A DNA stretch of 64,000 nucleotides from Opitutus sp. ER46 (lineage in GTDB: Bacteria; Verrucomicrobiota; Verrucomicrobiia; Opitutales; Opitutaceae). A program made the translations under genes and the position numbers. The notes beneath the pieces were generated by a model, which was not told the origin of the DNA, did not search any database, and worked only from the letters and a program-made list of their open reading frames with translations. The DNA is taken from assembly GCF_003054705.1 (NCBI RefSeq), contig NZ_QAYX01000018.1:248001-312000 (forward strand), given 5' to 3'. Within the stretch, counting starts at the first letter, position 1; each line of letters opens with the position of its first letter. Shown here piece by piece: positions 29,214 to 58,205 of the stretch.

Positions 29214-29252
29214 CTATTATAGCCGCAAAGAGGCGCAGACCCCAATGGCGGT

Positions 29253-29815
29253 AAGCTCTAGGCGATAGGCTTTAGGCTTCTGTAGCCGATACCTACTCGG
29301 CAACGTTGGTCGCCATGAAAGATTATCGTAAGCTAACTATTTGGAAACTGAGCCATACTTTGGCGCTGAACGTCTATTCCGCCACAAAGTCCTTTCCCAA
29401 GGACGAGTTGTTCGGACTAACCAGCCAGCTGCGACGAGCTGCGATGTCGATTCCAGCCAATTTAGCCGAAGGGTGTGGGCGCAACGGCGACGCTGAGTTG
29501 CGGCGTTTCGCATTTATCGCATTGGGCTCTGCTTCGGAACTGGACTACGAGATTCTCCTCGCGACCGACTTGGGCTACCTAGCGAAAGAAACCGGAGCAC
29601 GCTTAGCTGAGGACACCTTGCAGCTCCGCCGAATGATGGGTGCGTTCGTTTCGAAGTTGAGCCCCTGACCACGTCCCCATGCCCAGTCGAAGTCCCCAAG
29701 GCAGGCGACCCATCGCCTGCAACTAGCCTAGGTTCGGCTCAGCCCCCGAGCCGGCCGCGCTCACTCGCGTCTGGTCTTCTGAAGCCTAACGCTTACCGCT
29801 TACCGCCTAGAGCTT
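29253..29815. mobile_element. Putative mobile unit: heptamer inverted repeats flanking a four-helix-bundle gene
   Basis: Left arm 29253-29280 begins AAGCTCTAGGCG and ends TTTAGGCTTC. Right arm 29781-29815 begins GAAGCCTAAC and ends CGCCTAGAGCTT, so the outer 12 bp and inner 9 bp are exact inverted matches. Both arms consist of heptamers (CTCTAGG, CGATAGG, CTTTAGG, CGGTAAG, CGTTAGG); the right arm has one extra unit. The enclosed gene has visibly lower GC than its neighbours. The unit separates a response regulator from its kinase, which suggests insertion into an operon. No target-site duplication was identified. Confidence 0.6.
29315..29668 (+). CDS. Four-helix bundle protein (23S rRNA intervening-sequence protein family)
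   Basis: 117 residues from the ATG at 29315 (MKDYRKLTIWKLSHTLALNV). It shows the full family pattern: the N-terminal YRKLTIWK, ELFGLTSQLRRAAMSIPANL, AEGCGRNGDAELRRFAFIAL, and GSASELDYEILLATDLGYL. These small basic proteins form homopentamers and are related to the Avd accessory protein of diversity-generating retroelements; their free-standing role is unknown. The gene is lower in GC and uses A/T-ending codons (tta, aaa, gat) more than its neighbours, which implies transfer. It lies within a heptamer inverted repeat between a regulator gene and its kinase. Confidence 0.93.
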   Translation: MKDYRKLTIWKLSHTLALNVYSATKSFPKDELFGLTSQLRRAAMSIPANLAEGCGRNGDAELRRFAFIALGSASELDYEILLATDLGYLAKETGARLAEDTLQLRRMMGAFVSKLSP

Positions 29816-55674: not shown

Positions 55675-57177
55675 ATGGCAAAACCTCAATCCGACATCGG
55701 ACTCATTGGCCTAGCGGTCATGGGTCAGAACCTCGCGCTCAACATCGCCGACCACGGCTTTCAGATTTCGGTCTACAACCGCACCACCGAGAAGACCGAC
55801 AAGTTCGTCGCCGAAAACCCCAATACCCCCGGCGGAGTCGTCGGCACGAAGACCCTCGAGGAGTTCGTGAAGTCGCTGGCGAAGCCGCGCAAGATCGTGA
55901 TCCTCGTCCAAGCCGGCAAGGGCACGGACGCGGTCATCGACAGCCTGGTGCCGCTGCTGGACCAGAACGACATTGTGGTTGATGGCGGCAATGCGCTGTG
56001 GACGGACACGATCCGCCGCGAGAAGGCGCTCCGCGAAAAGGGCCTGCGCTTCATCGGCTCCGGCGTGTCCGGTGGCGAGGAAGGCGCGCGTTTCGGTCCG
56101 GCGCTGATGCCGGGCGGCGATCCGGCGGCGTACAAGGAGCTCGCGCCGGTCTGGAATGCGATTGCGGCCAAGGTCGACGCGAAGACCGGCAAGCAGTTGA
56201 CGGGCGGCGCGCCGGGCAAGCCGATCCAGGGCGGGGTGCCGTGCGCGGCGTACATTGGCGAGAATGGCGCCGGGCACTACGTGAAGATGTGCCACAACGG
56301 AATTGAGTACGGCGACATGCAGATGATCTGTGAGGCGTATGCCCTCATGCAGGGTCTGCTCGGCCTGAAGGCCTCCGAGATGGGCGCCATCTTCTCCGAG
56401 TGGAACGAAGGCATGCTCGGCAGCTTCCTGATCGAGATCACCGCCGACATCCTGAAGCAGAAGGACCCGGCCTCGAAGAAGGCGTTCGTTGACGTCGTCC
56501 TCGACACGGCCGGCCAGAAGGGCACGGGCAAGTGGACGTCGGTGAGCGCGCTCGACATGGGTGTGCCGGCCCCGACGATCGCGGAATCCGTGTTCGCGCG
56601 CTGCCTGAGCGCGATCAAGGACGAGCGCGTCGCGGCGTCGAAGATCCTCAAGGGCCCGGGCAAGAAGTACAAAGGCTCGAAGAAGGCGCTGGTCGCGGCG
56701 ATCCACGACGCGCTGTACTGCTCGAAGATCTGCTCGTACGCGCAGGGCTTCCAGCTCATGCGCGAGGCGCAGAAGGAGTACAACTGGAAGCTGAACTTCG
56801 GCGAGATCGCGCAGATCTGGCGCGGTGGCTGCATCATCCGCGCGGTGTTCCTGCAAAAGATCACCGAGGCGTACACCCGCAAACCGGACCTCGCGAACCT
56901 GCTGCTCGACCCGTACTTCAACAAGACGGTGAAGAAGGCGCAGGAGAACTGGCGCAAGGTGGTCGCGCTCGCGGTCGAGTGTGGCGTGCCGGTGCCGACG
57001 TTCAGCTCGGCGCTGGCGTACTACGACGGCTATCGCGCCGCCCGCCTCCCGGCCAACCTGCTCCAGGCGCAGCGCGACTATTTCGGCGCGCACACCTACG
57101 AGCGCGTGGACAAGCCCCGCGGCAAGTTCTTCCACGTCGACTGGCCCGAAGCCAACCGCCCGCAGCTCGAGATGTGA
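55675..57177 (+). CDS. gnd: 6-phosphogluconate dehydrogenase (decarboxylating)
   Basis: 500 residues from the ATG at 55675. N-terminal NADP Rossmann domain ([20 protein letters not shown]), substrate site [20 protein letters not shown], catalytic Lys in [20 protein letters not shown], the [10 protein letters not shown] motif, and the C-terminal segment [17 protein letters not shown] with the tail His-x-Asp-Trp. It oxidises 6-phosphogluconate to ribulose-5-phosphate in the pentose phosphate pathway. Dimeric cytoplasmic enzyme of usual length, with a good terminator after it. Confidence 0.97.
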
Positions 57178-57253: not shown

Positions 57254-57297
57254 GTTTCCACGATGTGCGACGGGCGTGCCTTCTGCCGGACCCGGCT

Positions 57298-57337
57298 GAT
57301 CCGACGGATCGGACTGATCAGTCTGATCCGTCGGATC
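57298..57337. repeat. 40-bp near-perfect palindrome of family H nonamers
   Basis: GATCCGACGGATC at 57298-57310 is the inverse of GATCCGTCGGATC at 57325-57337, around ACTGATCAGT; one pair of mismatching bases in 40. It lies 17 bp beyond the 3' end of the four-helix-bundle suffix gene and is built of the same units as the array at 58134. Confidence 0.9.
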
Positions 57338-57354
57338 TGAGGAATGGTCACACC

Positions 57355-58104
57355 TCACGCGGGGACGGTGCCCTTGCACTCGGGGTAGCGCGTGCAGCCC
57401 CAGAACTGGCCGCCCGGCGCCTTGCCGCTCTTTGCGGTCCGGAGCGCCGTGAGGCTGCCACACGTCGGGCAACGAGGTGCCGTCTCGGCATTGGGCGCGC
57501 GTGCGCGCTGCTTGAGCCGCTCGGTCGCGAGGTGCTCGGAGTAGCCGCCATCGGCAATGAAAGCGGCTTCCAGCGCGGCAACTTGCCGATCGAGCAGGAA
57601 GTTCGCCTGGTGAATCAGGCAGATGATCGCGTTGGCGCGCACGACTGGATCGGCGGCATCGAGCCATCGGGCGTAAAGCGCGTAGCGTTGGCTGTCGCTC
57701 AGGTCGGCGAGCGCGACGGCGCCCTGACCGTTCGATGGCTCAGACGCGCTACGCCCCACGGCGCGTACCGCAGTGGCCTCGAGACTGTCGGATGCCCATT
57801 GCGGGACACGCCGGTGGCGAAGGTAGTCTTCGTAATCGAGCAGCAGCTCCTCGAGGCTGGCGCGCGCGACGTTGATCAGGCGCAACTCCGTCTGCGAGGA
57901 GGTCGCGGAGGCGCGGCTGCCCTCGGCGATGTTTTGCCGGCCCGAACGCGCGGCCTGCACCATTTGATCGACGGTGCGGGAGCGCCCATCGAGGTACTTT
58001 TCGCAGAACCAGACGGTGGCATCGTAAATCAGCGTGGCCGTCTGGAAGCTCGCCGTGGTGCGATAACCTCCGCTTGCGCGCAGCTTGTGGTGGGGACCTT
58101 GCAT
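57355..58104 (-). CDS. Four helix bundle suffix-domain protein with zinc ribbon
   Basis: 249 residues. Residues 15-95 match the four-helix-bundle family: FQTATLIYDATVWFCEKYLD, TVDQMVQAARSGRQNIAEGS, TELRLINVARASLEELLLDY. A distinct helical 'suffix' domain follows (about 135-205, LSDSQRYALYARWLDAADPV). A topoisomerase-type zinc ribbon (CPTCGSLTALRTAKSGKAPG...GCTRYPECKG) ends the protein. The zinc ribbon suggests nucleic-acid binding. The gene is enclosed by nonamer repeats, an array 29 bp beyond its start and a palindrome 17 bp beyond its stop. Function is unknown. Confidence 0.9.
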   Translation of the reverse strand: MQGPHHKLRASGGYRTTASFQTATLIYDATVWFCEKYLDGRSRTVDQMVQAARSGRQNIAEGSRASATSSQTELRLINVARASLEELLLDYEDYLRHRRVPQWASDSLEATAVRAVGRSASEPSNGQGAVALADLSDSQRYALYARWLDAADPVVRANAIICLIHQANFLLDRQVAALEAAFIADGGYSEHLATERLKQRARAPNAETAPRCPTCGSLTALRTAKSGKAPGGQFWGCTRYPECKGTVPA

Positions 58105-58133
58105 GGGTGGCAGGTTGTGGGGTGAGGCCTACG

Positions 58134-58205
58134 TGATCCGACTGATCCGACTGATCCGACTGATCCGACTGATCCGACTGATCCGACTGATCCGACTGAT
58201 TGGCC
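58134..58205. repeat. Nonamer array TGATCCGAC x7 (family H)
   Basis: Seven perfect copies from 58134 to 58196, then one degenerate unit (TGATTGGCC). On the minus strand the unit reads GTCGGATCA, upstream of the four-helix-bundle suffix gene. Not a CRISPR: no spacers. Confidence 0.95.

Follow-up and report, generated by a model that had tools for sequence, protein, structure and literature searches.

A four-helix-bundle gene framed by inverted short-unit arrays in Opitutus sp. ER46: probable copy of a small mobile element without a transposase

The locus analysed here raises the question of whether a gene for a four-helix-bundle protein and the short-period repeats that frame it belong together, and if so, what kind of genetic unit they form. 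A sequence-only reading of the window (the whole stretch of 64,000 nucleotides from Opitutus sp. ER46) had placed the gene between an array of TGATCCGAC units before its start and a palindrome of the same unit after its stop, an arrangement that the coordinates and TRF confirm (Table 1). It is suggested here that the locus is probably one copy of a small mobile element that has no transposase and consists of a single four-helix-bundle gene with inverted short-unit arrays as its ends. The layout shared by many relatives, some of which have clearly jumped, indicates an overlooked kind of mobile DNA. A cognate pairing of protein and repeat makes the function of the S23p proteins, to which excerpts of PMC4990558 assign no known function, and the spread of heptamer arrays directly testable.

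The focal element and its window

The focal protein belongs to the suffix family and to the four-helix (S23p) family, as judged by its scores against TIGR04258 (63.1 bits, cut-off 40) and TIGR02436 (28 bits, cut-off 24); it reaches 32 bits against Zn_ribbon_Top1, at the cut-off of 32, and 27.3 bits against Pfam PF05635, under the cut-off of 33.8. Pfam scans of the protein revealed no Y1 transposase domain and no catalytic domain, and the Avd profile NF033474 was absent from its matches up to E 1. Used as a query against PDB, it retrieved only matches of E 0.29 or more; PDB matches to the short-form profile A2 are 2GSC and 2RLD, the former being the solved structure of X. campestris XCC0516, a member of the four-helix family. 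One scan of the IMG/VR viral contigs gave no relative of the focal protein, and Rfam gave only matches far under the gathering scores for the focal region.

The 5' arm comprises 67 bp, with seven perfect TGATCCGAC units and TGAT, and reads ATCAGTCGG on the gene strand (TRF score 134, 100% match, period 9). The near-palindrome within the 3' arm (57298-57337) is 40 bp long, is built of the same unit, begins 17 bp past the stop codon and is self-complementary at 38 of its 40 positions. The neighbours of the element are an ORF ending at 57177, a 6-phosphogluconate dehydrogenase by reading, and an ORF from about 58408; the gene does not lie inside a 23S rRNA gene, the location of an IVS. Among the congeners seen, the gene order after gnd (placed by tblastn) varies and no empty site for the focal element was found.

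Table 1. Four-helix-bundle elements and gene-less arrays in the 64-kb window
Feature	Position	Strand	Basis
Focal four-helix-bundle gene, suffix domain and Top1-type zinc ribbon, 249 aa	57355..58104	-	profile matches
5' arm of focal element, 7.4 perfect TGATCCGAC units, 29 bp before ATG	58134..58200	.	TRF and direct reading
3' arm of focal element, period-9 stretch containing near-palindrome	57289..57337	.	array scan, direct reading
Second four-helix gene, short form, 117 aa	29315..29668	+	TIGR02436 115.9 bits, PF05635 118.5 bits
5' arm of second element, TAAGCTC/TAGGCGA/TAGGCTT heptamers	29252..29279	.	flank reading, array scan
3' arm of second element, inverted heptamers GCCTAACGCTTACCGCTTACCGCCTA	29784..29809	.	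flank reading
Gene-less inverted pair, AGAATGC arrays, unit of element L004	10324..10417	.	array scan
Gene-less inverted pair, TCTTAC/GAGTAA arrays, unit of element L007	21558..21658	.	array scan
Gene-less inverted pair, AGAGTA/AGAGAA arrays, unit of element L007	26390..26478	.	array scan
Solo GGAAGCC heptamer array, unit of element L003	18698..18786	.	array scan
Solo GGAAGCC heptamer array, unit of element L003	20888..21010	.	array scan
Solo TCTTAC array, unit of element L007	9519..9550	.	array scan
Solo GTGAGA array, unit of element L006	37349..37377	.	array scan

The second four-helix gene of the window had been contrasted with the focal one at the sequence-only stage, at position 29253, but its two flanks also carry one kind of unit. 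In addition, a GGTTATT heptamer array at window positions 10711-10760 matches none of the genome's own four-helix genes.

Elements and dispersed cognate arrays of the Opitutus genome

A profile search of the genome (5.71 Mb, 25 contigs) identified eight TIGR02436 genes, each flanked by mutually inverted short-period arrays with a unit of its own, and all eight loci pass the formal flank test described below; the earlier count of two of two bracketed four-helix genes is thereby extended to 8/8 of the TIGR02436 genes found. The period-7 units are TAGGCTT, TAAGGNN, GGAAGCC and AGAATGN, and the others are AAAGGGCT (period 8), GTGAGA and TCTTAC (period 6) and the focal unit (period 9); the arms of one element (L002) are weak and were detected by eye and by alignment score only. 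According to the reading of flanking frames, two of the elements precede and follow atpG, amid the ATP synthase genes. A second, sub-threshold TIGR04258 match (E 1.6e-6) is also present in the genome, at G000:C18:205643-205747.

The view that the repeat is private to the focal gene had to be given up, since its unit is dispersed: GATCCGACNGATC has 44 partly overlapping matches in the 5.71-Mb genome as against none for the reversed pattern, a weak control because the reversed pattern contains CTAG, which is rare in many bacteria. None of the matches outside the focal element lies closer than 27 kb to the other TIGR02436 genes. A wider scan of 604 kb (the window and 27 stretches of the genome) found 71 arrays reaching lag 13, and 49 of these carry a unit of the genome's own eight elements, an array being considered cognate when at least a quarter of its 7-mers are common to the arms of those elements. 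Six of the eight units are represented among the 49, which include the two focal arms and one GC-rich match that looks accidental. Random sets of eight foreign elements, drawn from 87 elements of other genomes and unmatched in base composition, gave a mean of 1.98 matching arrays and a maximum of 9 (500 draws). At lag 8.5, the 67 family arrays include 13 inverted pairs within 400 bp, and 15 of the 67 lie inside ORFs. By this measure of shared 7-mers, most of the scattered arrays sampled in the genome are shown to carry the units of its own four-helix genes, and a cognate repeat that is dispersed as well as placed beside the gene, as in RAYT/REP systems, is thus present. Octamer arrays of ATCCCTCA at L185:6981-7050, L202:70-121 and L199:8081-8126 match none of the eight elements.

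Layout, units and insertion sites in relatives

The four-helix family is common, being present in 143 of 194 sampled genomes of the phylum. Loci for the flank test were selected by protein alone, and a locus passed when its 250-bp upstream flank and the reverse complement of its downstream flank gave a local alignment score of at least 17 or, alternatively, when each side reached a lag score of 8.5; the start codon position of the focal gene and the location of one locus (L075) were fixed manually. The test was passed by 26 of the 30 phylum loci (the 30 best, one per genome; four fail) and by 64 of 78 named bacterial loci (the best 80 of 587, with two left out for short contigs; 14 fail), as compared to 34 of 316 control genes (6/59 in the same loci and 28/257 elsewhere; Fisher 1e-34 for the named loci). 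The controls were mechanical ORFs of at least 100 aa, the 257 being taken from 20 stretches of 20 kb. Inverted heptamers were also seen at all eight cyanobacterial loci fetched from the 34 plasmid records carrying the gene. As far as flanking sequence alone can tell, the layout is shown to recur in most of the relatives sampled across bacteria. The association in other genomes that the sequence-only reading had proposed as a check therefore holds for the phylum and the named loci, and less so for the suffix-domain loci of the focal subtype, of which only 12 of 30 (sampled from 73 places) pass and 15 show neither signal, in a set that is weak because its start codons are approximate and its arrays are in some cases short or continue into the reading frame. 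In some suffix-type genes (L054, L059 and L065) the repeat seems to lie inside the ORF, where it would encode linkers of the DRSDP/DQSDP type ahead of the zinc ribbon.

Arrays on both sides at lag 9 were found in 70 of 126 elements (suffix set left out, focal element included). The period is the same on both sides in 69 of these 70 elements, the upstream arm is G-rich in 65 and the downstream arm C-rich in 59, and the inverted orientation outscores the direct one in 62. The sharing of 5-mers between the upstream arm and the inverted downstream arm amounts to 0.63 within an element and 0.05 between elements. Heptamer-armed four-helix elements were also observed between cas6 and cas4 of type I-D CRISPR in plasmids of Pseudanabaena galeata (L260) and Anabaena sp. 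90 (L262).

The period could be called in 104 of 148 loci, with 79 of period 7, 12 of period 8, 11 of period 9 and two of period 6, the unit of the element being 9 nt at the focal locus and 7 nt in most of the relatives seen. Period 9 was found for the focal gene and for every one of the 10 suffix loci whose period could be called. On a tree of 100 of the 104 loci, in which columns are few and many forks are open, period 9 forms one clade, the suffix clade (1 change vs 8-11 in shuffles), and period 8 occurs in scattered places (12 rows need 10 changes, and 34 of 500 shuffles are as low). Over 70 elements, protein similarity and unit similarity are correlated (Mantel rho 0.128, reached in 0 of 1000 permutations), mean unit similarity being 0.03-0.06 under a protein similarity of 0.6 and 0.21-0.89 above it (35 pairs). 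Period and unit follow the protein in part.

Doubled units were searched for in 12 genomes reached through named loci. Doubled GGGAGTC has 113 overlapping matches in the Phormidium genome whose gene bears it and none in the 11 others, while doubled TAGGGCAG has 30 matches in the Mesorhizobium genome bearing it, 29 in the genome with a sister protein and none in the 10 others. The arms of the gene of this sister genome (L150) read AAGGGAGT, although the genome has TAGGGCAG arrays. A reversed control pattern, CTGAGGGCTGAGGG, has 143 matches in one genome (G351, with locus L102 of Thiohalocapsa halophila) and represents another abundant heptamer family. Co-occurrence of arrays and genes was examined in 150 genomes of the taxonomic family, 51 of which have TIGR04258, with p values that ignore kinship: ATAGGNCNTATAGGNC, an ATAGG-type pattern, is present in 20 genomes, 15 of them with TIGR04258 (p 7e-5), and has at least three matches in seven, five of them with TIGR04258 (p 0.045), and GATCCGACNGATC has at least five matches in 13, nine of them with the gene (p 0.007). 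Six genomes (G004, G094, G123, G103, G029 and G055) have many arrays and no TIGR04258 gene detected by profile search.

Direct signs of insertion come from Nostocales plasmids, where five occupied and empty junctions in four plasmid regions mark these relatives as mobile elements. Site 1 is occupied by array, gene and array in Trichormus variabilis ATCC 29413 plasmid C and in Scytonema NIES-4073, and is empty in N. linckia NIES-25 and in Aulosira laxa plasmid 3 (97% identity); GTAAT flanks the insert on both sides and is present as a single copy in the empty site, as in a clean target duplication of 5 bp. The same site in a Nostoc C052 plasmid retains the left array and a gene remnant. At site 3a the upstream gene has its stop codon interrupted by the insert, which also restores it; the insert is flanked by TTCTA with one base lost on the right. 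Site 3b, the adjoining gene junction in this gene cluster, is occupied by a different four-helix element. Both occupied and empty versions exist of sites 2 and 4, with gene-less arrays at the place of site 2 in another plasmid, and the junctions of 2, 4 and 3b define no duplication. Over the five junctions, target duplication is therefore clean at one, altered by a 1-nt loss at one and ambiguous at three. Aligned in this way, the junctions show that array-gene-array units insert as discrete blocks, between genes or at gene ends, on cyanobacterial plasmids.

Variation was also seen at the ATP synthase genes of congeners, for which 17 of 28 loci were examined and atpG was located in 14 besides the own genome. 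The atpA-atpG spacer holds the gene in the own genome; in 4 of the 14 congeners (L221/L230 and L222/L234) it contains inverted heptamers without a gene, built on two different units, and in the other 10 it has no inverted array; the atpG-atpD spacer is 26-50 bp long and without an insert in 13 of 13 readable congeners.

Nostocaceae also contain, in many copies, an element of about 169-190 bp (L276, L277 and L279-L292) that lacks the gene and ends in arrays matching those of the element at site 1. It gives matches at E 0.001 in 48 of 60 genomes, many of them partial or of the array ends alone, and a copy covering at least 150 of 169 nt in at least 14 genomes; L276 and L277 gave only matches far under the gathering scores of Rfam. 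Among 15 copies chosen for length, compensatory changes were found in its two inner hairpins: nine pairs have changes on both sides, seven of them in the inner hairpins and two in the outermost helix (the outermost 4 pairs). The array-array stem pairs in 92% of cells, with no pair changed on both sides in the 15 copies. Covariation for the whole structure is 0.183, as compared to 0.104 when shuffled (0/500) and at most 0.053 when slid, and the covariation term of RNAalifold is just -0.2.

Competing readings and known systems

The best reading is that these are IVS-like mobile elements whose protein would recognise its own periodic repeat; both the binding and the insertion chemistry are inferred. 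The transcript of the element would fold with its arms paired, and a ring-forming protein would grip the G-rich arm with one unit per subunit. The resulting nucleoprotein may then be what an enzyme acting in trans copies or inserts, and gene-less copies could be mobilised via their matching arrays. Excerpts of PMC4990558 describe a relative from X. campestris whose four-helix bundles assemble into a homopentamer. If each subunit of such a ring bound one unit, this would explain both the uniform period within an element and the different period in the suffix clade.

A more general proposal, which is put forward tentatively and could quite possibly hold, is that bacteria-wide mobile DNA exists without transposase, integrase or a reverse transcriptase of its own, in which a ring-forming four-helix protein would read single-stranded RNA or DNA of periodic sequence, each subunit taking one unit, with the period set by how the protein is built (9 nt where the suffix domain is present, usually 7 where it is absent). 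Enzymes of the host, or others acting in trans, would copy and insert the arm hairpin, and the heptamers long known as orphan repeats in cyanobacteria, Beggiatoaceae and Xanthomonas would be gene-less offspring. If true, this would be a new type of mobile element without a recognised recombination enzyme, and the IVS and Avd lines would be joined under one principle of a protein on periodic nucleic acid.

It is possible, though somewhat doubtful, that the arrays are instead a device for RNA processing or autoregulation as in the 23S rRNA IVS, in which the arms pair, RNase III excises the insert from the host mRNA, the protein binds its own transcript and the spread of the repeat is a by-product of other machinery. 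In the Coxiella IVS, as presented in parts of PMC4990558, the terminal stem of 28 bp is cleaved by RNase III in vitro, and variable GACAGAT heptamers precede the start of an S23p ORF. The focal transcript is likewise predicted to pair arm to arm, since both the MFE and the centroid structures join the 5' array to the 3' palindrome (z -4.1, reached by 0 of 20 shuffles), and in this predicted fold the complementary ends form a stem round the ORF as in an IVS. Moreover, 93 of 108 elements have an upstream neighbour in the same direction, as against 140 of 219 controls (p 1.4e-5); for the downstream neighbour the counts are 72 of 100 and 136 of 218 (p 0.06). Under the mobile-element reading, which the predicted fold favours too, this fits a dependence of the elements on read-through transcription. 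Without a step of mobility, however, such a device leaves the cognate gene-less arrays, the insertion polymorphism and the correlation of protein and unit unexplained.

We consider it rather unlikely that some other mobile system (a RAYT, an IS or a reverse transcriptase elsewhere) spreads the arrays with the four-helix gene as a passenger or accessory. The genome does contain two RVT_1 genes, and the focal protein has no catalytic domain in Pfam; but both RVT_1 genes lie on other contigs (C22 and C24) than the window (C18), the units track protein similarity, and loci chosen by protein alone carry matching inverted arrays. That the arrays are ordinary slipped-strand microsatellites beside these genes by chance is hardly credible: slippage does act on them, given the perfect tandem copies of the focal array and the differences in array copy number between Coxiella strains (excerpts of PMC4990558), but chance or plain slippage was rejected on the control genes of the flank test and is already contradicted by the matching of the units of the two flanks in inverted orientation (8/8 and 64/78 vs 34/316 controls), by the same unit at dispersed sites and by the insertion of whole blocks on cyanobacterial plasmids.

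Reading the locus as a mobile element with a cognate repeat invites comparison with four kinds of known systems, the first of them being the dispersed heptamers. Such heptamers of cyanobacteria are said to have been first reported in strain PCC 7601. The repeats of cyanobacteria and the GGGAATC-type repeats of Xanthomonas and Nostoc (parts of PMC4692102, in which Calothrix PCC7601 is named), and the TAACTGA repeats of Beggiatoaceae (parts of PMC4679880) resemble the arrays found here in being dispersed intergenic heptamer arrays, with inverted pairs in Xanthomonas. The same portions of both papers give neither a partner protein for them nor a way in which they spread, and PMC4679880 calls for the identification of a repeat-binding protein; the terms 'S23' and 'helix bundle' are absent from the main texts of both. 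In the open-licence literature, outside which most subscription papers and preprints lie, no link between the family and arrays was found except for the Coxiella IVS heptamers (PMC4990558).

PF05635 is described as resembling Avd, which is required for retrohoming in DGRs (excerpts of PMC10053308). The focal locus differs in that no reverse transcriptase is adjacent and the Avd profile is unmatched, and assignment to the DGRs was rejected as there is no adjacent RT.

The RAYT/REPIN systems, according to parts of PMC3116915, share with the present elements a single-gene family, cognate short inverted repeats found genome-wide, a gene beside repeats and hairpin doublets. They differ in the Y1 transposase domain and the protein family, and their REPs of 20-40 bp (excerpts of PMC3733652) stand against the short-period tandem units seen here. 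The suggestion of a RAYT/REP-like partnership of protein and cognate repeat thus gains from the association elsewhere, the dispersed cognate arrays, the protein-repeat correlation and the insertion polymorphism, but the focal system is not itself a RAYT, since Pfam shows no Y1 transposase, and RAYT membership was rejected on this basis.

With the 23S rRNA IVS, finally, the elements have in common the protein family (S23p/PF05635), complementary ends forming a stem round the ORF and, in Coxiella, heptamers (parts of PMC4990558). The elements described here lie outside rRNA, beside protein genes, with eight in the genome of the window, and come with cognate arrays that lack a gene and are dispersed in the genome, their units having periods of 6-9, whereas the cited portions of PMC4990558 describe no genome-wide partner repeats for the Coxiella IVS. 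On present comparisons, the element class is closest to the IVS in its architecture and to RAYT/REPIN in its behaviour.
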